From NCBI GenBank assembly GCA_030625085.1, contig DAOURK010000012.1, forward strand, positions 1-55,546: a stretch of 55,546 nt of DNA, written 5' to 3'. Both the position numbers and the translations under genes were made by a program. Positions within the stretch are counted from its first letter, which is position 1, and every line of letters begins with the position of its first letter. Shown here one piece after another: positions 10,903 to 48,086 of the stretch. A model generated the notes under the pieces. The model did no database searches, had not been told where the DNA came from, and was given only the letters and a program-made list of their open reading frames with translations. The stretch comes from Pseudomonadota bacterium. Lineage in GTDB: Bacteria > SZUA-182 > DTGQ01.

Positions 10903-12459
10903 TCATATTTTCATTGGATATGTTTTCTTCTTATTTTCAACAAATTGGGATTGATCACTTTCTTCTGTTGAATCAATCCATTTTGTAATTCGTTCCCGGT
11001 TCTCCCGGCTGATATCGACAAATTCTATACCAATATCATAGGGTAGCCCCCGGCGACCGAATATTTCTTTAATCCAAACAACCTTACCTAAGGCAAGAAT
11101 TGGCGACGAATTATTGGGGAAATTGATTAATAGCTTAAATAAGTAATCATAGGCAATATATTTTTGGGAGGAAACACGAAGTCCGGTCCCGCTGATATCC
11201 TGGGCCAACAGCAACTCTTTCTGAGGTATCCGATATACTTCCACAGAGGCCACTGATTTTCTGCGCCATATCCTCTTTTCCAAAGGCAAACTAACAATAA
11301 AGGATACCCCGCGATCTTGATTAATTTTTACTTGAATATCCCCGCCATGAAAAGTAATAAGACGTTCGACAATTGACAAACCTAAACCAATACCATTTTC
11401 CTTGCCATGGCTTGCAAAAGGTGTAAATAAATTTTCTTTGATTTCATCGGCAATTCCCTGGCCAGTATCAATAATGTGAATTTTCGCCCATTGTTTTTCC
11501 AATTCAGTCCGGATAATCAATTCTTTCTTTTTCGCCTTTTCCATTGCTTCTATGGCATTCTGAATCAAATTAACAAATACCCTGGTCAGTTGTTCATATT
11601 CGCCTGGAATAATTAACTCATCAGCAATATATTCTTGAATTATATGAATGGCCTTATTTTTGATTGTCTCTGCAAAAATCTCCGATACTATCTGATCCAG
11701 GAGTTGATTCACGTTAACCTGTTCAGTTTTTGATCTAAATGGTCGAGCATACATGAGCAGATTATTAATAATGGCTGTAGCCCTTTTAATTTCTTTTTGC
11801 GCAATAGGGAAAAATTTATCCGAGAGATCCGAACTAACTGCATCCTTCCACCCGGGACTTTGAGCTAAAAGCTGAAAAAAAACACTAATGTTATTAAGAG
11901 GGCTATTTAAATCGTGAGCAATTTGAATGGCTATTTTCCCTAAATTTGCATAAACACGTTCCCCAACCATCCGTGTATAGATGTTGATCTTATCGATAGT
12001 TAAGGCGACCTGATGAGCAATATGCTCTAAAGCATCCAACTCCTTATCAGAATAAGCCTGCTTGTTCTTTTTTGGGCCCACATTCAATAAACCGACTATT
12101 TCATTTTTATCAGATCTAAGGGCAAGGCAAACTTCAACATTAAGATTTTGTAATTCCTGCTGTAATTTTTTCTTCTGAAGACACCCCTCATTGAAAACCT
12201 TATCATGGACTAAAACTTTAGATCCATTAGCCGAAAGCCACTGAAAAATTTCACTTTCATGTTCGAAAATACAATTTTTCTGAAATTTCGTACCTCGCTG
12301 TGAATGAAGAAAAAAACCTTTCTTATTCTGATCCCACAATAATAATGATATGGGACTAGAAAAAAATTGATACATAACATCAGTAATATAGTCTGCTAAA
12401 TTTTCTAAATCTATGTATTGACCTATGCCCTCGATAATGTCTGCTAAAGTCATGCTCAA
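10903..12459 (-). CDS. Cytoplasmic histidine kinase: GAF, HisKA, HATPase and C-terminal PilZ
   Basis: A 518-aa protein without membrane segments. Residues 15-160 form a GAF-like sensor, 165-240 a HisKA dimerisation helix with H182 in AHDLNSP, and 290-395 a HATPase domain (NAIEAM N-box, DTGQGI, GIGLGLS). A PilZ module follows at about 395-495: basic RRK at 399-401 and DISGTG at 421-426, matching the RxxxR...(D/N)xSxxG cyclic-di-GMP-binding signature. GAF-kinase proteins are common; a PilZ module at the C-terminus of a kinase is unusual. It precedes the HD-GYP regulator in the same direction, linking phosphorelay and cyclic-di-GMP. Confidence 0.88.
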   Translation of the reverse strand: MSMTLADIIEGIGQYIDLENLADYITDVMYQFFSSPISLLLWDQNKKGFFLHSQRGTKFQKNCIFEHESEIFQWLSANGSKVLVHDKVFNEGCLQKKKLQQELQNLNVEVCLALRSDKNEIVGLLNVGPKKNKQAYSDKELDALEHIAHQVALTIDKINIYTRMVGERVYANLGKIAIQIAHDLNSPLNNISVFFQLLAQSPGWKDAVSSDLSDKFFPIAQKEIKRATAIINNLLMYARPFRSKTEQVNVNQLLDQIVSEIFAETIKNKAIHIIQEYIADELIIPGEYEQLTRVFVNLIQNAIEAMEKAKKKELIIRTELEKQWAKIHIIDTGQGIADEIKENLFTPFASHGKENGIGLGLSIVERLITFHGGDIQVKINQDRGVSFIVSLPLEKRIWRRKSVASVEVYRIPQKELLLAQDISGTGLRVSSQKYIAYDYLFKLLINFPNNSSPILALGKVVWIKEIFGRRGLPYDIGIEFVDISRENRERITKWIDSTEESDQSQFVENKKKTYPMKI

Positions 12460-15519: not shown

Positions 15520-15888
15520 TGGTGGAGGCGGGGGGAATCGAACCCCCGTCCGAAAATATTCAGCGAAGAACATCTACATGTTTAGCCTATAATTTATATC
15601 TCGCGAATCCCCCACTCCTATAGGCGCGGATTAAAGAATTCGCCAGCTCAATAAGGTTTCATTATCCTTATCCTTGAGCAAAAAAAGGATAACTATCCTC
15701 TGTATATGACATCCGATCTTACCCCCACAGGAGAAAGGTAAGCGGACGTGGCCACACTAAGGGTTAGTTAGGCGGCCAGAGCCAATTCATTGTTGGCAGT
15801 TGTGTTTTCCCTATTGTTTAACGAGAAAATAGGAATCTCGACATGCAGTCCTTGCTTCAACTATCCCCGTCGAAACCAGATCGCCCCC
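15520..15888 (-). ncRNA. ssrA: tmRNA
   Basis: The 369-nt RNA begins GGGGGCGATCTGGTTTCGAC and ends with a T-arm GGGTTCGATTCCC and an encoded CCA; the ends pair as a 7-bp acceptor (one G-U). The internal reading frame ends ANNELALAA followed by a stop codon, a normal proteolysis tag. The resume codon could be the GCC of that peptide or the GAA four codons earlier (tag ENTTANNELALAA). It rescues stalled ribosomes together with SmpB, whose gene lies 125 bp upstream in the same direction. Ends were placed by acceptor-stem pairing. Confidence 0.97.
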
Positions 15889-29735: not shown

Positions 29736-30329
29736 ATGAAAAAAATTGCTAATTTTCTTTTTGAAACAGGAATGTTAAAAAAAACTCCGAGAACCGGGTA
29801 TCAATTCTTAGGGTCGGGAAAAGAATCTGTTGCTGAACATACCTTCAGGGTAGTATGTATTGGTTACACATTATCTAAGCTGGTCTCAGAAAAAATAAAT
29901 GAGGTGCGACTCTTAAAGATGTGTCTTTTTCATGACCTTCCTGAAGCCAGGACCGGAGACCATAATTATGTAAATAAAAAATATGTATCCATCGATGAAA
30001 AAAAAGCCATCCACGACCTTACCTCCCCGCTACCTTTTGGTAGTGAGATAGCCGAATTGATACAGGAATTCACTCTTCAAACAACTCTTGAATCCAGGTT
30101 GGCTAATGACGCAGACCAGTTAGATTTTTTGCTCCAACTCAAAGAATACGGCGACCTGGGAAATAAATACACCCATGACTGGAGCCAGGCTGTTATGAAA
30201 CGGCTGCAAACCAAGGTGGCCCAAAATTTAGCGAAAGAAATTTTAGAAACCGACTCGAGTGCATGGTGGTTTCATGATAAGACAGATCCCTGGTGGGTTA
30301 ATGGGAAAAAAGAAAAAAATAAAGGATAA
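29736..30329 (+). CDS. HD-domain 5'-nucleotidase (YfbR-like)
   Basis: A 197-aa HD-superfamily phosphohydrolase. SVAEHTFRVVCIGYTL supplies the first metal histidine, FHDLPEARTGD the HD pair and NDADQLDFLLQLKEYG the last aspartate; all resemble the YfbR/HDDC2 deoxyribonucleoside 5'-monophosphatase group. It lies 12 bp before the ubiD-like gene, so probably co-transcribed, although a role in quinone synthesis is not known. Confidence 0.85.
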   Translation: MKKIANFLFETGMLKKTPRTGYQFLGSGKESVAEHTFRVVCIGYTLSKLVSEKINEVRLLKMCLFHDLPEARTGDHNYVNKKYVSIDEKKAIHDLTSPLPFGSEIAELIQEFTLQTTLESRLANDADQLDFLLQLKEYGDLGNKYTHDWSQAVMKRLQTKVAQNLAKEILETDSSAWWFHDKTDPWWVNGKKEKNKG

Positions 30330-30341
30330 TCATATACCATT

Positions 30342-31790
30342 ATGATCATGAATGATTTAAAAAAATTCATTACTCTTTTAGAGAAACAAAATGAACTCAT
30401 CCGGATTACTGAAGAAGTAAGCCCACACTTAGAAATCACTGAAATTACTGACCGGGTGTCTAAACTGCATGGTAAGGCCTTATTATTTGAGCATGTTACG
30501 GGATACACAACGCCGGTACTCATGAACGCTTTTGGTTCTATGAAACGAGTAGCCTGGGCCTTAGGAGTTAATGAGGTTGAGGAAATCGGAAAATTATTTG
30601 AAGAACTTATGGAAAGCCGGGTACCTGTAGGATGGCTTGAGAGATTCAAACTTTTACCAAAACTAAAACGATTTCTCGCCATGTCCTCCAAAATAATAAA
30701 AAACCCTCCCTGCCAAAAAATAATCTATAAGGGAGAGGACATATCTTTATCTCAGCTCCCTGTCTTATTTTGCTGGCCAGGTGACGGCGGCCCTTTTATT
30801 ACCTTGCCCACAGTTTTTACCAAGCATCCGGTTACAGGAAAAAGAAATGTGGGCATGTACCGAATGCATGTTTATGATGACCGCACCACTGGAATGCATT
30901 GGCACACCCATAAAGATGGGGCTGAGCACTATCGTCAGGCTGAAAAACTCAACCAGCGGCTGGAGGTAGCCGTAGCTATCGGGCCGGACCCAATTGTTAC
31001 TTATGTAGCCACAGCTCCCCTTCCTCCGGATATAGATGAAATCCAATTTGCCGGCTTTATACAAAATGCACCTATTGAAATGGCCAAATGTTTGACTATT
31101 GATCAAGAAGTGCCGGCCAATGCCCAGTTTGTGCTTGAGGGATACGTAGAGCCCGGAGAGCGACATACTGAAGGCCCTTTTGGGGACCATACAGGCTACT
31201 ATTCACCAGCAGACTCCTATCCGGTTTTTCACCTGACATGCCTCACCCATCAGAAAGATCCTGTTTATCCAGCCACTATTGTCGGCAAACCGCCTATGGA
31301 AGATTGCTTTTTGGCCAAGGCAACCGAACGAATCTTTTTGCCTCTCATAAAAGCACAATTGCCTGAGATAGTAGATTTAAACCTTCCTATTGAGGGCGTA
31401 TTTCATAATCTGGCCTTGGTTTCTATAAAAAAGTCATACCCTGCTCAGGCACAGAAAGTAATGTCTTCCCTCTGGGGAATGGGGCAAATGATGTTTACCA
31501 AAATCATCATTGTTTTTGAAAGTGATGTTAATGTCCACAATCTTTCCGAGGTCCTCTGGAGATTAGGCAATGACATTGATCCAAAAAGAGACATAATTTT
31601 CTTCGAAGGTCCGGTAGATGCATTAGACCACGCAGCCTCCAACCCGCACCTTGGTTCCAAGATGGGTATTGACGCCACCAGAAAATGGCCGGAAGAGGGA
31701 TTTCCCCGCACCTGGCCGGATCTCATTCGCATGGACCCGGAGGTAATAAAAAAAATTGACCATTTATGGCCTAAACTCGGAATTGATTGA
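30342..31790 (+). CDS. UbiD-family prenylated-FMN decarboxylase (menaquinone pathway, MqnL-like)
   Basis: A 482-aa member of the UbiD family: GFIQNAPIEMAKCLTIDQEVPANAQFVLEG and GERHTEGPFGDHTGYY and the conserved PPMEDCFLAKATERIF block are diagnostic. It decarboxylates an aromatic ring using prenylated FMN made by UbiX, whose gene lies downstream. Together with UbiE-, UbiX- and UbiA-like genes, it forms the late part of menaquinone (futalosine-type) or a related quinone pathway. mqnA-E are not in the window, so the substrate is inferred. Starts at ATG 30342 or 30348. Confidence 0.93.
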   Translation: MIMNDLKKFITLLEKQNELIRITEEVSPHLEITEITDRVSKLHGKALLFEHVTGYTTPVLMNAFGSMKRVAWALGVNEVEEIGKLFEELMESRVPVGWLERFKLLPKLKRFLAMSSKIIKNPPCQKIIYKGEDISLSQLPVLFCWPGDGGPFITLPTVFTKHPVTGKRNVGMYRMHVYDDRTTGMHWHTHKDGAEHYRQAEKLNQRLEVAVAIGPDPIVTYVATAPLPPDIDEIQFAGFIQNAPIEMAKCLTIDQEVPANAQFVLEGYVEPGERHTEGPFGDHTGYYSPADSYPVFHLTCLTHQKDPVYPATIVGKPPMEDCFLAKATERIFLPLIKAQLPEIVDLNLPIEGVFHNLALVSIKKSYPAQAQKVMSSLWGMGQMMFTKIIIVFESDVNVHNLSEVLWRLGNDIDPKRDIIFFEGPVDALDHAASNPHLGSKMGIDATRKWPEEGFPRTWPDLIRMDPEVIKKIDHLWPKLGID

Positions 31791-31892
31791 ACATTACTGA
31801 CATTTTACCTCTGGAATTGCCTGCAACAATATAAATATATTTACTATTAACTTATAACTTATAACTTAACTCAAGGACAAAAAAATAATTGT

Positions 31893-32609
31893 ATGGCTGA
31901 TAAGTCTCAAATACAAAAAATGTTTCGGACCATCTCTCCCACTTACGATTTATTAAATTCACTTTTAAGCTTTCATATTGATAAGTGGTGGAGAAAAAAA
32001 ACTATCGCTCTTTTTCAGCCACAATGGCGGCAGCAAAACAAACAAATCATTCTCGATCTTTGCAGTGGAACCCTTGATTTATCACTTCAAATAGTAAAAA
32101 ATAGCAAACCACATATTAAAGTAGTGGCCTTAGATTTTTGCTATGAAATGCTGCAGGAGGGAAAAAAGAAGATACCTGCCGATTGGAAAAATCGCATTTT
32201 TCTGGTTTGTGCTGACATTGAACATTTACCTGTCCGAGACAATGTGGCGGGTGGTGCGGTTATGGGCTTTGGTTTGCGCAACCTGATTGACCGCCAAAAA
32301 GGCTTGGAACAAATTAAACGCACCTTAAAGCCTTTGGCTAAATTAGCTATCCTGGAATTTTCCCAACCTAACTCCCGTTTTTTTCAAGCCCTTTATTATC
32401 TTTATTTTTTGCATATTCTCCCCATGATCGGCGGATTGATTTCCGGTAATAGCTACGCGTATAAATACTTGCCAAATTCAGTGCTAAAATTTTATACCCC
32501 TAAACAACTACAAAAAATCTTGCAGCAGGTCGGGTTTGGAAAGGTCCGATTTTCCCTTTTAACCGGTGGTATTGCCACCCTGCATGTGGGGAAAAAATAT
32601 GTCACTTGA
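31893..32609 (+). CDS. menG: Demethylmenaquinone/ubiquinone methyltransferase
   Basis: A 238-aa SAM-dependent methyltransferase with YDLLNSLLSFHIDKWWRKKTI, the SAM motif LDLCSGTLDLSL, VVALDFCYEML and the family block MGFGLRNLIDRQKGLEQIKRTLKP. It methylates the quinone ring. Lies between the UbiD-like and UbiX-like genes. Whether to call it UbiE or MenG cannot be decided from sequence; the absence of ubiquinone-specific genes favours menaquinone. Confidence 0.93.
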   Translation: MADKSQIQKMFRTISPTYDLLNSLLSFHIDKWWRKKTIALFQPQWRQQNKQIILDLCSGTLDLSLQIVKNSKPHIKVVALDFCYEMLQEGKKKIPADWKNRIFLVCADIEHLPVRDNVAGGAVMGFGLRNLIDRQKGLEQIKRTLKPLAKLAILEFSQPNSRFFQALYYLYFLHILPMIGGLISGNSYAYKYLPNSVLKFYTPKQLQKILQQVGFGKVRFSLLTGGIATLHVGKKYVT

Positions 32610-33213
32610 TTTAAAAACTAACCTCAATAAACCCCGGCGTTATATTCTGGCTATTAGCGGAGCAAGCGGTATGGTCTATGCGCTCAAATTCCTCAATTAC
32701 CTTATAAAAGCAGAATTGGAAGTACATTTAGTAATTTCCCGGCAGGCAAAAATAATCTTACAAAAAGAGATGGGTCTGGAAAATGATTATTTTCAGCAAC
32801 TGCCGGTTATACACCATGATTGCCAAGACTTTTCCTCTCCCCTGGCCAGTGGGTCCTTTCACACCCAGGGCATGATCATCCTCCCCTGTTCTATGCATAC
32901 CCTAGGAGCTGTGGCTCAAGGACTTTGCTTTAATCTTATTCACCGGGCCGCTGCCGTTTGCTTAAAAGAGCAACGTAAATTAATTTTAGTGCCACGAGAA
33001 ACTCCCCTCAGCAGTATTCATCTAAAAAATATGCTGACCCTTTCTCAGACAGGGGCAGTAATCCTCCCAGCCATGCCTGCCTTCTACAATCGCCCAAAAA
33101 ACCTGGATGAGCTGGTAGAATTTTTTGTTCAAAGGGTCCTCAACCAGATTGGCTTGACCTCTCCTCGGCTTGAAATGTATGCTTGGGCCCAAAAAGACGA
33201 TGAGAGAAAATAA
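32599..33213 (+). CDS. ubiX: UbiX-family flavin prenyltransferase
   Basis: Makes prenylated FMN for the UbiD partner. RYILAISGASGMVYALKFLNYL carries the flavin-binding SGASG, with AAAVCLKEQRKLILVPRETPLSSIHLKNM as the family's signature. Start placed at ATG 32599 (GGGG upstream), overlapping the methyltransferase stop by 11 nt and giving 204 aa; the frame also extends to 32566. Its stop overlaps the start of the UbiA gene closely. Confidence 0.94.
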   Translation: MSLDLKTNLNKPRRYILAISGASGMVYALKFLNYLIKAELEVHLVISRQAKIILQKEMGLENDYFQQLPVIHHDCQDFSSPLASGSFHTQGMIILPCSMHTLGAVAQGLCFNLIHRAAAVCLKEQRKLILVPRETPLSSIHLKNMLTLSQTGAVILPAMPAFYNRPKNLDELVEFFVQRVLNQIGLTSPRLEMYAWAQKDDERK

Positions 33214-34074
33214 ATGATTGATCGGTTAAAAATTATTCTGGAGATGATTAAATTTGAGCATAGTATTTTTGCCATCCCCTTCGCCCTTCTGGCAGCTTTC
33301 TTGGCTGCCGAGGGAATACCCTCTCTATTTAAAATATTTTGGATACTGGTAGCCATGATAGGAGCTCGTAGTGCGGCTATGAGTTTCAATCGGCTGGTGG
33401 ATGCTCCCTTTGATGCCCAAAATCCACGCACCCAAAACCGAGCTCTCCCTGCTGGAAAAATCAAAAAAAAAGAGATAATTTTTTTTCTTTTGATTTCGTG
33501 CGGCCTTTTCTTTTATGCGGCCTATGCCTTAAATCTTTTATGTTTTTTTCTCTCGCCCTTTATATTATTTATTTTACTCGTTTACTCATATACGAAACGA
33601 TTTACCTCTTTCTCCCATCTGGTCTTGGGGCTTTGCCTAGGATTGGCTCCTGTTGGAGGGTGGATTGCTATTGCCGGCCGAATTGATTGGCTTCCCGTTG
33701 TGTTGGGTATTGGTGTTTTATTTTGGGTGGCCGGATTCGATATTATTTATGCCTGCTTGGATTATGAATTTGATCAAAGATCGAATCTTTACTCTATCCC
33801 TCAAAAAATCGGCCTCCAGGGAGCATTATGGATTTCGGTTTTATTGCATCTTGCGGCCGCCATCTGTTTTTTCCTTATTTGGCCAATGGCCAATTTAGGT
33901 GCAGGCTATGTTATTGCCTACCTCATAACCCTCTTTTTTCTTGTTTATCAGCATTGGATTGTCCGTCCCTCGGATTTATCTCGCGTTAACATCTCTTTTT
34001 TTATAGCTAACGGCCTCATTAGTATTGTCCTGTGCAGTGCTGCCATTATTGATATAATAATAATGGCAAGGTAA
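33214..34074 (+). CDS. ubiA: UbiA-family polyprenyltransferase (MqnP-like)
   Basis: A 286-aa, eight- to nine-segment membrane protein. Aspartate-rich motifs NRLVDAPFDAQNPRTQNRALP and DIIYACLDYEFDQR bind Mg2+ and the prenyl diphosphate. It attaches the isoprenoid tail to an aromatic acid, the step before decarboxylation and methylation by the neighbours. It begins immediately after ubiX. Substrate (4-hydroxybenzoate versus 1,4-dihydroxy-6-naphthoate) cannot be read from sequence. Confidence 0.93.
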   Translation: MIDRLKIILEMIKFEHSIFAIPFALLAAFLAAEGIPSLFKIFWILVAMIGARSAAMSFNRLVDAPFDAQNPRTQNRALPAGKIKKKEIIFFLLISCGLFFYAAYALNLLCFFLSPFILFILLVYSYTKRFTSFSHLVLGLCLGLAPVGGWIAIAGRIDWLPVVLGIGVLFWVAGFDIIYACLDYEFDQRSNLYSIPQKIGLQGALWISVLLHLAAAICFFLIWPMANLGAGYVIAYLITLFFLVYQHWIVRPSDLSRVNISFFIANGLISIVLCSAAIIDIIIMAR

Positions 34075-34171
34075 TTAATTCCGATCAACAGAGAATCTTC
34101 TTCCCGAATAATATAAAAATAAGACTTTTAAATTAAAATACAAACAAAGCTTTTATTAAAAAGGAGATACT

Positions 34172-35587
34172 ATGTTTAGTGAAAGGACAGAAAATAGAAA
34201 ATATAACCGGATTCGGTCTAAAATCTCCTTACGCTATCATCGAGTAATTAACAAGCGGGTGTTGTCGGATTTCCAAAAATCTTTCATAAAAAATATTAGC
34301 GCTTCAGGCCTTCTGTTTGAATCAAGGGAGATTATACCTCTGGGAACAAAAATAAAAATATTTTTTGTCCTCCCTGGTCAAAAAAAAGAAATTGCCGCCT
34401 TAGGAAAGGTAGTACGTATTGAAAGTTTAAAATTAACCACCAAATATAATATTGGTATAAGCTTTCAAGAATTGGAGGCAAAAGATCGGGAAGAGATTCG
34501 AAGACGAATCGAAATGATGGATCTTTTGCGATTGCTTCAATTAGCACATGAAAACAATGCCTCCGATCTGCACCTGACTTATGGCCAACCACCTATTTTA
34601 CGTATATCGGGGCATCTTCACCCTTTGGATATGGAAAAGCTGGATCAGGAAGATTTACGAACTTTGATTTACAGCATCTTGAGCGACGAACAAATTAGAC
34701 GTTTTGAAAAATGGAAAGAATTAGATTTAGCCTTTTCCCCAAACCCCAATATTCGCTTTCGGGTAAACATCCACCAGCAAAGAGGAAATGTAGAAGCTGT
34801 TTTCCGTACCATTATGCCAATTATCAGATCCATCCCTGATCTTGGATTGCCCAAGGTGGTGGCGGACCTGGCTTTAAAACAAAAAGGGATTGTTATTATT
34901 GCCGGACCGACCGGATCGGGGAAAACCACTACCCTCTCAGCCATGGTAGACCTGATCAACCGAAAAAGGGAAGCTGTAATCATTTGCCTGGAAGATCCTA
35001 TTGAATACATTCATAAAAACTTCAAGTCTATTGTCAAACAACGAGAAATCGGGACAGATACACTTTCCTTCTCACTGGCACTTCGCTGTGCTTTAAGGCA
35101 GGACCCTGATGTTATCTTAATTGGAGAATTGCAGGATGCAGAAACTGTTAGCGCGGCTATTACCGCCTCCGAGACCGGTCATCTGGTATTGACCTCCATG
35201 CATGCTCCTGATTGCGTTCAGGTAATGGATCGGTTGGTGGGAATGTTTCCCTCTCACCAACGCCAGCAAATATCTAAGCAATTAAGCAATTGCCTTCAGG
35301 GGATTATAGCTCAAGCCCTGTTGCCAAGGAAACAAGAAAAAAATCGGGTAGTGTCCACCGAAGCCCTCATTGTTACCGAAGCGGCAAGAAATATAATTCG
35401 GGAAAATAATACGGTTCAACTTCGTTCCATTATCGAAACAGGCGGTAAATACAAAATGCACACCATGCAAGAATCTGTCCGAAAACTTTACCTGCACGGT
35501 ATCATCTCTGAGGAGGTAGCTAAAGAATACTGCCGAGACCTCAATTTCGATTTTAGACCGGAATATGCAAATACCGGATCCAATTAA
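34172..35587 (+). CDS. PilT-like ATPase with N-terminal PilZ domain
   Basis: A 471-aa fusion. Residues 1-115 are PilZ, with RKYNR (9-13) and NISASG (41-46) matching RxxxR...(D/N)xSxxG. Residues 117-460 form a PilT/PilU-like secretion ATPase: Walker A AGPTGSGKTT (244-253), the Asp-box ICLEDPIEY (271-279), Walker B DPDVILIGELQD (311-322, usual GEMRD) and His-box TGHLVLTSMHAPD (335-347). It would retract type IV pili in a cyclic-di-GMP-dependent way. It has AAAAGGAG before its ATG and no pilin gene beside it. The fusion within one polypeptide is uncommon. Confidence 0.92.
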   Translation: MFSERTENRKYNRIRSKISLRYHRVINKRVLSDFQKSFIKNISASGLLFESREIIPLGTKIKIFFVLPGQKKEIAALGKVVRIESLKLTTKYNIGISFQELEAKDREEIRRRIEMMDLLRLLQLAHENNASDLHLTYGQPPILRISGHLHPLDMEKLDQEDLRTLIYSILSDEQIRRFEKWKELDLAFSPNPNIRFRVNIHQQRGNVEAVFRTIMPIIRSIPDLGLPKVVADLALKQKGIVIIAGPTGSGKTTTLSAMVDLINRKREAVIICLEDPIEYIHKNFKSIVKQREIGTDTLSFSLALRCALRQDPDVILIGELQDAETVSAAITASETGHLVLTSMHAPDCVQVMDRLVGMFPSHQRQQISKQLSNCLQGIIAQALLPRKQEKNRVVSTEALIVTEAARNIIRENNTVQLRSIIETGGKYKMHTMQESVRKLYLHGIISEEVAKEYCRDLNFDFRPEYANTGSN

Positions 35588-37528: not shown

Positions 37529-40000
37529 CTAGCGAAGGCGGTAATAGGAAGGCAAAGAAAATGGAAGATGCAATTCTTTTTCATTCTTCATGTGTACAAA
37601 ATATCCCTCTCCCATCCTAATAGGAAAATCGATCCCCACAGGGCTATCTCCAATCCAATAAGCGCTTTCATCCTCCCCTGTTTTCCCATTGTAACGACAC
37701 ATACTTACCACACTCTCTTTGCCGAGTTCACGTAAAAAGTCATAGGCTGAATATTCCTCAGCTAATACTACGGGAATTCCTATCAGATTGGTACCCTTAA
37801 GCAAATCGTAATCGCAGGAGGTGAGATCGCCGCTCCGGATTTTTAAATTGACAACGACTGATTGCCTGGCATATACAAGATATCCTTCCAAAGGATTAAG
37901 GGAGAAATTATACCCTTCAATTATACCATTTTCGCCATAGTTTACCTTCTGATCAGGGTTATACCGAAGAATACTTTCTACCTCATCGGGGTCCCCCAGC
38001 TTCGGTAATAGATCATAAGCAAATTTATTTGAATCTTCAGGATAACAAATTCGATTAACACCCGGTTCTAATTGCAAGTCCATATGATAAACCACGGTTA
38101 CAGAAATATATCTGATAGTTGAATCTTCCGCATCGCTTACAGTAATCTTTATAATATGCTCACCCACATCAGCCAAGGTGGTTTCGTAAAAATAATTCGG
38201 GTTATTGCTGGTTGGCCAGGATCCGGCCCCTTCAATACTATAAGAAAGAAGGTCATTTGGGCCGTCGGGATCATCAGCTTCCACTAAAAAATCCACATTT
38301 TGGCCGACCTCAATTTCCATGTCCTCAGAAGGTGATTCTATAACAGGAGGTTCAGGATCTAATTCATCCATTTCAAAGGTATAATTAAGTCCTTGAAGTG
38401 GAATATTAAGATAATATATCGTCTTTTTTTTATATCCCTCTGCCGTGACTTCCACCTTATATGATCCCACCGGAAGAGGCGCTTCGAATTCCCCATCACT
38501 ATCAGTCATAATGTCGCCCACAGGAGATCCGGGGGTAATATCAATGGTTGCATCTTCTATACTTTCACCGTTTTCACCTTCAACTTCTCCCCTGAGCAAG
38601 GGCATAGGAAATGCAATATCTCGGATCGTATTTTGCGAAGAAAAAATTCCTATCGAATCTATGGTTAAAATTCCCCCACCACCTTCAGGGGGATAGGTAA
38701 CCGTCACTTTATAATCACCTTCCGGCAATTTAAGCAAGTACTTTCCTTGAGAGTCGGACACTATATTCACTGTCGGAAAATATGAACCATCAAGGGATTG
38801 TGCTGTAATAATAACTCCGACGAGGGGCTTGCCGGTAACTTCATGTTCGACAACTCCCTTAAGATTGCCTGATGTCAACTCAAGGTCTAAAAAATTACAC
38901 ACTATAGGCCCATTGACATAAATAATTTTCTCACCTAAAAGCTCGCCATTATACATTACTGTTACTGAATAAGTACCTCCCAAGAGAGGATAGGTTTCAT
39001 AAAATCCATTAGAATCAGTCCGATATGAGTCTACTATAAGATTTGATCTTACAGTGATGTCTGCATCATCTAATGGTCCATTATTTTTAGTTGTAACTGA
39101 GCCCATAATCCAGCCAGAAGTTATTGAATACGCAGAGGACGACCCATAAGGCTGATTACTAAAAAATCCATATGGGTATGTGCCGGCAGTTGAGGTACCC
39201 ATATACGAACCAGCAGAGCGATCATAGTAACTTCCACCATAAGGGGCGTTATAAGGAGTAGTATAAGGAGTAGTATAAGGAGTAGTATAAGGAGAGTAAT
39301 TTCCCCCCAAGTTAAAAGAAGGATATCCTCCATAAGAATTTCCGCCCCACTGTGACATTCCTCCCCCCATCCCGTAAGGAGACATTCCATAAGGAGTACT
39401 ATATGAGGTTCCACCCCCCTGTGACATTCCTCCCCCCATCCCAGACGGAAACATTCCATAGGGAGAACTATATGAGTAACCGCCGGACTGAAAAAAGGGA
39501 CGTTGCGATCCTCCAGGGAGATAAGTAGCCCTTGAGGTATTATAATTAGGGCTATAAAATCCAAACAATGAATTTATGGTTTGGGGGAAATTGAAAGAAG
39601 GTGAGAATTGAGACAACTCAATGGGAAGATTAATATTATTAAATCCCCCACCACCAAGATTTAGTGGGGTAATTCCCTGTCCTGTTAATCCTATAGGGCC
39701 TCCAAAATTCATAAAAGACCCACCCCCCATCAAAAGTTGGGTACCTGAAAGACCTGGTAAATAAAGCCCCCCTCCATCACCGCCTCCAAGAGAATACCCT
39801 GCAGAAGTATGGGGAAGACCGAGCATAGGATAAGGAATCAAGGAAGAAATAAGCATTTGGTTGCCGAGGGTTGCGGATGCGGCCCCGGGTTCTTTGAGAA
39901 TTTGTGCTTGCCCAACCCTTTGTATACTGGGCCCTATAGTCATAAAAACTATCAATAAGACAATAATATATATGTATCGTCCCTGAACTATTTCTTTCAT
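37529..40000 (-). CDS. Large secreted repeat-rich surface protein
   Basis: An 823-aa protein with an N-terminal signal segment (about 1-32). Residues 50-295 are low-complexity, rich in Gly, Tyr, Ser and Pro, with imperfect repeats such as PYGMGGGMSQ and TTPY. Then come three carboxypeptidase-regulatory-like beta modules (about 300-560), a cadherin/Ig-like module (about 560-650) and two copies of a C-terminal module sharing a GTNLIGIP-type start and GYFV end (about 650-820). No sorting motif seen. It ends the minus-strand series with the CHAT and sigma genes, downstream of a beta-barrel protein, so it is probably exported to the cell surface. Confidence 0.8.
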   Translation of the reverse strand: MKEIVQGRYIYIIVLLIVFMTIGPSIQRVGQAQILKEPGAASATLGNQMLISSLIPYPMLGLPHTSAGYSLGGGDGGGLYLPGLSGTQLLMGGGSFMNFGGPIGLTGQGITPLNLGGGGFNNINLPIELSQFSPSFNFPQTINSLFGFYSPNYNTSRATYLPGGSQRPFFQSGGYSYSSPYGMFPSGMGGGMSQGGGTSYSTPYGMSPYGMGGGMSQWGGNSYGGYPSFNLGGNYSPYTTPYTTPYTTPYNAPYGGSYYDRSAGSYMGTSTAGTYPYGFFSNQPYGSSSAYSITSGWIMGSVTTKNNGPLDDADITVRSNLIVDSYRTDSNGFYETYPLLGGTYSVTVMYNGELLGEKIIYVNGPIVCNFLDLELTSGNLKGVVEHEVTGKPLVGVIITAQSLDGSYFPTVNIVSDSQGKYLLKLPEGDYKVTVTYPPEGGGGILTIDSIGIFSSQNTIRDIAFPMPLLRGEVEGENGESIEDATIDITPGSPVGDIMTDSDGEFEAPLPVGSYKVEVTAEGYKKKTIYYLNIPLQGLNYTFEMDELDPEPPVIESPSEDMEIEVGQNVDFLVEADDPDGPNDLLSYSIEGAGSWPTSNNPNYFYETTLADVGEHIIKITVSDAEDSTIRYISVTVVYHMDLQLEPGVNRICYPEDSNKFAYDLLPKLGDPDEVESILRYNPDQKVNYGENGIIEGYNFSLNPLEGYLVYARQSVVVNLKIRSGDLTSCDYDLLKGTNLIGIPVVLAEEYSAYDFLRELGKESVVSMCRYNGKTGEDESAYWIGDSPVGIDFPIRMGEGYFVHMKNEKELHLPFSLPSYYRLR
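39251..39294 (-). repeat. 12-bp in-frame tandem repeat inside the surface gene
   Basis: Three perfect copies plus 8 bp of ATAAGGAGTAGT on the plus strand, encoding repeated TTPY on the minus strand. The period is a multiple of three, so copy changes keep the frame and would only change surface-protein length. Confidence 0.9.
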
Positions 40001-48013: not shown

Positions 48014-48086
48014 TACGCCCGGAAGGATTTGAACCTTCGGCCTCAGCGTCCGGAGCGCTGCGCTCTATCCCCTGAGCTACGGGCGC
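48014..48086 (-). tRNA. tRNA-Arg (anticodon CCG)
   Basis: The 73-nt minus-strand RNA folds as a cloverleaf: acceptor GCGCCCG/CGGGCGT (one G-U), D-arm AGCTC...GAGC, anticodon stem CAGCG/CGCTG with loop CTCCGGA and anticodon CCG (codon CGG), T-arm with GGTTCAAATC. CCA is not encoded. The rest of the gap 47610-48341 is AT-rich with no gene seen. Alignment by hand; ends reliable to about 1 nt. Confidence 0.93.

Follow-up and report, generated by a model that had tools for sequence, protein, structure and literature searches.

The PilZ-PilT gene and its neighbourhood

The window, that is, the whole 55,546-nucleotide stretch of DNA analysed here, contains on its forward strand a complete open reading frame with an ATG start, whose product joins a PilZ domain to a PilT-type ATPase (Table 1). 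Both domains scored above their curated cut-offs: PilZ (PF07238) reached 45.7 bits (Pfam cut-off 22.5), T2SSE 143.5 bits (Pfam cut-off 24.9) and TIGR01420 415.9 bits (NCBIfam cut-off 319.1), the last of which places the protein in the PilT/PilU family. The N-terminal half passes the PilZ gathering cut-off and also has the PilZ fold, and an MshEN domain was not found among the Pfam matches listed (best 25 of 31).

Table 1 Positions of the fusion gene, its domains and motifs, and the adjoining upstream genes in the window
Feature	Position	Strand	Basis or remark
PilZ-PilT fusion gene	34172..35587	+	471 aa; ORF, Pfam and NCBIfam matches
AGGAG, ribosome-binding-site-like	34162..34166	+	5 bases 5' of the fusion ATG; read by eye
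PilZ domain, residues 8-113	34193..34510	+	Pfam PF07238, 45.7 bits; model matches MotI/DgrA and Alg44 PilZ structures
RxxxR motif, RKYNR, residues 9-13 (R9, R13)	34196..34210	+	kept in 12/12 fusions showing the stretch
NxSxxG motif, NISASG, residues 41-46 (N41, G46)	34292..34309	+	(D/N)xSxxG in 6/13 fusions
Junction, residues 103-127: PilZ C-terminal helix 103-115, then first PilT helix 118-127	34478..34552	+	predicted model
PilT/PilU-family ATPase, residues 118-456	34523..35539	+	TIGR01420, 415.9 bits; Foldseek, VIA-align to PilT4 structures
Walker A, GPTGSGKT, residues 245-252	34904..34927	+	sequence
ASP box, EDPIE, residues 274-278	34991..35005	+	D275 replaced by N in 3/5 of the window's order
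Walker B DPDVILIGE with catalytic Glu319 and unusual GELQD, residues 313-322	35108..35137	+	Q321 versus R in 85/85 unfused relatives
HIS box, TGHLVLTSMHAPD, residues 335-347	35174..35212	+	H337 and H344 both kept; HT replaced by HA
Upstream codirectional genes: HD domain, UbiD, UbiE, UbiX-type flavoprotein, UbiA	29736..34074	+	context only

The two marks of a c-di-GMP-binding PilZ domain, RxxxR and (D/N)xSxxG, were both present in the window's protein, together with the set expected of the PilT/PilU family (Walker A, ASP-box Glu, catalytic Glu, HIS-box histidines and arginine fingers). The first-pass annotation, which had placed a PilZ module and a PilT ATPase on one polypeptide with intact RxxxR, NxSxxG, Walker A, Walker B and His-box motifs, was thus borne out: the frame is complete, each motif was located, both domains pass their cut-offs and the combination is conserved across genomes. 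It had missed two departures, GELQD in place of GE-x-RD and SMHAPD in place of (T)LHT-x-x; the Arg of the GE-x-RD loop and the HT of the HIS box, which are conserved traits although the formal family definition does not include them, are absent from the window's protein.

The fusion gene starts 97 bases after the end of the UbiA-type gene, and the order HD-UbiD-UbiE-UbiX-UbiA followed by the fusion is kept within the window's family. A functional link to these menaquinone-type genes was considered and rejected. Since the fusion lies elsewhere in a genome of the same order but another family (G004, neighbours named by eye), the upstream genes appear to be an old neighbourhood without a pilus part. 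No pilus genes were found beside the fusion in the window, in G004 (by eye) or in two genomes of other phyla (G479 and G383), and the gene is an orphan in the four settings examined.

The window holds a second PilZ fusion, a histidine kinase (10903-12459, reverse strand) of the order GAF - HisKA - HATPase - PilZ, whose C-terminal PilZ domain scored 30.1 bits and carries a DISGTG motif. Also recorded were a tmRNA gene (15520-15888, reverse strand), a tRNA gene (48014-48086, reverse strand) and an 823-residue protein (37529-40000, reverse strand) whose N-terminal region is rich in Gly, Tyr and Ser and which contains three carboxypeptidase-regulatory-like stretches. Only the C-terminal part of the latter aligned (37%) in L009 (MAG bacterium HOT.CON.50) and L010 (MAG 'Pseudomonadota bacterium' CSMAG_2299), both genomes belonging to the order's set.

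Distribution, origin and predicted structure

The fusion was found at full length in all five genomes examined from the window's order, with 64–74% identity (72–74% in G001, G002 and G003, of the window's family, and 64% in G004). Because full-length orthologs occur in four other genomes, a join produced by assembly or annotation was ruled out, and a chance join was rejected on the same ground together with the separate Pfam match of each domain. Within the order, identity to the window's protein was 42–52% in the PilZ half and 71–82% in the PilT half. The fusion was absent from the four genomes examined from the rest of the class, and was present in five of the nine examined from the phylum.

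Beyond the order, 386 genomes sampled across the domain were searched with a profile of the first 235 residues. When only matches that run in frame through both halves were counted, at least eight carried the fusion: the five of the order plus G383, G479 and G605. An eight-row profile used on the phyla of these last three genomes identified it in 4/5 genomes of the phylum of G479 (G479, G605, G617 and G618) and in 4/68 of the phylum of G383 (G383, G665, G666 and G676); the fusions of G666 and G676 are cut by contig ends, one at the N end and one at the C end. These additional sequences were taken in full from the DNA. A scan of contig records gave just two loci, both in genomes that the genome searches had also found. 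With a narrower model (A2), no fusion was seen among the matches listed for three other phyla (195, 40 and 3 genomes). The total is at least 13 fusions in three phyla, eight of them in two phyla other than the window's; this census covers N-terminal PilZ fusions, excludes rows that enter the PilZ part only via stop codons (e.g. in G362 and G041), and could let a very divergent PilZ half escape among the matches listed. Pfam recognised PilZ in 13/13 fusions and T2SSE in 12/13, the exception (L132) being a fragment that lacks most of the ATPase. In a plasmid search, the six matches listed were all to the PilT half, with one record counted at 80% coverage or more. The search for other PilZ-PilT fusions that had been proposed at the outset therefore yielded further cases in the window's order and in two other phyla, and the idea that the fusion is unique to the window's lineage was discarded. 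The combination is inherited and rare. Two other unusual frames were noted: a 741-residue one with two tandem PilT-family ATPases, as if fused (L022:1459-3681, reverse strand), and a 760-residue one with two PilZ matches side by side (G007:C138:9002-9664).

A maximum-likelihood tree of the ATPase half was built from 97 rows (12 fused and 85 unfused, with the L132 fragment excluded), and the 12 fusions formed one clade (support 86/86; 86% of 200 bootstrap trees). A single origin is favoured, with moderate clade support, rather than proven, because three fused rows, all of one phylum (L087, L111 and L113), sit on long branches. In the alignment the junction position was identical and the spacing nearly so across fusions, as a single joining event would predict. 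Closest to them in the tree stood unfused PilTs of other phyla with normal motifs, so the scattered distribution must come either from repeated loss across lineages or from movement between phyla.

An AlphaFold2 model built from 79 rows (mean pLDDT 92.6, pTM 0.86) predicted a PilZ barrel whose C-terminal helix adjoins the first helix of PilT, with no long linker. The modelled PilT half superposed on PilT4 of G. metallireducens (Z 43.3, rmsd 1.7 Å, 352 aligned), and the modelled PilZ half on MotI/DgrA (Z 16.1, rmsd 1.8 Å, 105 aligned) and on the Alg44 PilZ domain with c-di-GMP (Z 13.7, rmsd 2.6, 105 aligned). These last two are the closest solved folds to the PilZ half, at only 17–19% identity; MotI/DgrA acts on the flagellar motor and Alg44 on alginate synthesis. 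Compared by sequence with solved structures, the PilZ half gave no PilZ match, and only three chance-level rows. The best 50 Foldseek matches were all ATPases, and none of them was described as joining both halves in one solved structure. Geobacter PilT4 (PDB 6ojx/6okv) matches the whole ATPase half at 44–45% identity, with all the classic motifs present, but as a PilT it lacks a PilZ domain, and it differs from the fusion where the latter shows GELQD (for GE-x-RD) and HA (for HT).

Sensor and motor residues across the fusions

In the PilZ half, RxxxR was kept in every fusion in which the stretch is present (12/12). Only five columns (E7, R9, R13, I42 and P68) were invariant over 12 rows; the chance that two given columns of 113 both fall among these five is 0.0016, a value that serves as a guide only, the columns being non-independent and the rows related. 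Although identity of the PilZ halves to that of the window's protein is only 23–52%, R9 and R13 do not vary, which suggests selection on the sensor. The second motif was less constant: (D/N)xSxxG was found in the window's protein, L010, L011, L014, L087 and L130, hence in four of the five members of the window's order (L009 has NINAFG), and elsewhere it was replaced by EISSEN or EISADN (four of the G479 group), TVSYSG (L131) or SISAAG (L132). Binding of c-di-GMP is likely for the window's protein, because both motifs are intact and R9/R13 are invariant, and appears doubtful for the fusions of the G479 group. Uniform binding is not to be expected, given the NINAFG of L009 and the missing full second motif in 7/13 fusions.

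The motor half was examined by comparing the 12 fused rows with the 85 unfused PilT-family rows. Several positions that are invariant in all 85 unfused rows varied in the fused ones: position 321 (R when unfused) was Q in five, R in six and L in one; H344 was H in six, P in five and S in one; H337 was kept in 9/12, E319 in 11/12 (K in L087), D275 in 9/12 (N in three of the window's order) and R354 in 8/12. Within the window's order, Q321 was fixed (5/5) and so was A345 (5/5), where 78/85 unfused rows have T. Consistently with the motif survey above, K251, T252, E278, E319, R197, R212, H337 and H344 were kept in the window's protein and its four orthologs.

Roles were assigned to these residues by matching motifs and spacing to the Geobacter PilB description (PMC5424180). 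By this correspondence, R197 and R212 would be arginine fingers, E278 the Mg-binding Glu of the ASP box, T335 the residue held between two histidines, and D322 and E324 residues of pore loop 1 (PMC5424180); Q321 would thus come after the catalytic Glu and before the loop presumed to contact PilC. We infer that the ATPase changes alter function. In another phylum, L087 (5810-7201) has Lys for Glu at the catalytic site and has lost both HIS-box histidines, and L130 (5594-6991) has a Walker A ending in GKA and likewise lacks both histidines; from their sequences the two are candidate pseudo-ATPases.

A proposed accessory retraction ATPase with a built-in sensor

The window's own genome (G000) gave 13 T2SSE-type matches and six T2SSF proteins, from which several T2SSE/T2SSF machines can be deduced. 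One contig of this genome carries PilB, PilT, PilC, PilS and PilR in that order, so that the proposed check for other pilus genes had a positive outcome; the canonical PilT, which has no PilZ domain, adjoins PilB and PilC. Besides the fusion, three PilT-like proteins were present among the T2SSE-type matches (47%, 42% and 35% identity). The organism's PilB (L135:7457-9241, contig C40) has an MshEN domain (79.0 bits) and, close to the N end, two stretches of RLG type (the first recognised by eye, the second through a pattern search), and the two pilus motors of the organism may accordingly be equipped with different kinds of c-di-GMP sensor. The same genome has 15 GGDEF matches and 7 PilZ matches. 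Apart from the main pil operon, two adjacent PilT-like genes (L136:7634-10133, contig C17), 42% and 35% identical to the fusion, were recorded, the second of which has APKVILVGE instead of DPD.

The fusion is probably not the main retraction motor, because its gene is an orphan, a separate canonical PilT exists and its ATPase departs from the unfused set at positions invariant in 85/85. The first-pass claim that the sensor is built into the motor therefore holds in that PilZ and PilT form one chain, but probably not in its wider sense, the motor beside PilB and PilC being a canonical PilT. The explanation to which we give about an even chance makes the fusion an accessory PilT paralog, which would detect c-di-GMP in cis and adjust retraction jointly with the canonical PilT. 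Like PilT and PilU, it would in such a scheme form a hexamer, or enter one, and dock with it on PilC, the platform protein; c-di-GMP binding would rearrange the N-terminal RxxxR segment of PilZ, the rearrangement would pass through the junction helix to the N-terminal domain of PilT, and a shift of this domain would alter docking, the rate of ATP use or the exchange of subunits. On balance, retraction would most likely be slowed or stopped at high c-di-GMP (the sessile state), although the sign is a guess, and the same signal would act on extension via the MshEN domain of the organism's PilB.

An independent motor is conceivable because the residues described as catalytic are kept in the window's clade. 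A self-sufficient retraction motor, in which a normal PilT hexamer is switched by PilZ via c-di-GMP, would agree with the TIGR01420 score, well above the cut-off, and with the retention of Walker A, E319, E278, R197, R212, H337 and H344 in the order's five genomes; we consider it unlikely, given the change of R to Q at 321 beside pore loop 1 and of HT to HA, both in 5/5, the canonical PilT already in the pil operon, and the loss in fusions of other phyla of the catalytic Glu (L087), HIS-box His or the Walker A Ser/Thr (L130). The alteration or absence of the second binding motif in 7/13 fusions, one of them in the window's order, would also be compatible with a PilZ half that has become blind to c-di-GMP and acts by docking, so that the ATPase is brought to a partner; in Xanthomonas a PilZ protein bridges FimX and PilB. 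Both motifs are, however, intact in the window's protein, and the RxxxR arginines, which plain docking would not need, are among the only five invariant columns over 12 rows, so that this reading is distinctly unlikely. Service to another machine of the superfamily (type II secretion or a pseudopilus) instead of the PilB-PilT-PilC pilus is very improbable: several such machines, with their 13 T2SSE-type matches and six T2SSF proteins, are indeed available and the fusion gene is near none of them, but the protein is a member of the PilT/PilU family, known from type IV pilus retraction, and is neither a GspE nor a PilB.

The accessory paralog that we prefer has partial counterparts. PilU and PilT2 are likewise additional PilT-family paralogs beside a canonical PilT, a likeness that need not mean kinship; the gene for PilU often accompanies pilT, and its product lacks a sensor domain. 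In V. cholerae and P. aeruginosa, PilU can serve as a retraction ATPase only alongside PilT (PMC6762196). MshE binds c-di-GMP through its own N-terminal domain, and the paper that describes this judges PilT and PilU unlikely to be direct c-di-GMP targets (PMC4624772). MshE-type ATPases (MshEN being T2SSE_N) thereby share with the fusion the logic of an in-cis sensor on a pilus ATPase (PMC4624772), but they are extension or secretion ATPases with another sensor domain, whereas the fusion places PilZ on PilT. The earlier statement that c-di-GMP acts on pilus motors mostly through separate proteins must be tempered in this light, an in-cis sensor being known from MshE and an MshEN domain being present on the organism's own PilB; what stands is that such a sensor is unusual on PilT. 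The Xanthomonas campestris PilZ-domain protein XC_2249 is mentioned together with PilT and PilU in the same paper (PMC4624772). In the XC_2249 and PilZ-FimX-PilB arrangements a PilZ protein acts on PilT/PilU or PilB as a separate polypeptide, and the fusion would unite an arrangement of the XC_2249 type in one chain.

We found no report of a PilZ-PilT fusion in the open-access literature, which was the scope of the search, with subscription papers and domain-architecture databases lying outside it; the available text of PMC10333796 and PMC8316039 describes none. PilZ, PilT and c-di-GMP-gated pilus ATPases are already known, and the unusual part is the built-in sensor on PilT. More tentatively, and with less confidence than we give to an accessory paralog as such, the fusions may constitute a class of their own among pilus ATPase subunits, acting as a brake or clutch worked by c-di-GMP, which would insert into the PilT hexamer or contend for PilC. 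One signal would then reach both motors of a pilus in cis, through MshEN on PilB and PilZ on the PilT paralog, and the ATPase of the fusions would be drifting from an enzyme altered but complete in the window's order to a pseudo-ATPase in another phylum, while RxxxR is kept.

To our knowledge, c-di-GMP control of pilus retraction, unlike that of extension, is poorly explained. Elsewhere, a connection of PilZ proteins with PilT has been proposed for separate polypeptides; their fusion here supports it, and the retention of the sensor arginines alongside drifting ATPase motifs suggests a motor fold in regulatory use. With a retraction-type ATPase and its sensor in one chain, c-di-GMP control of retraction becomes directly testable.
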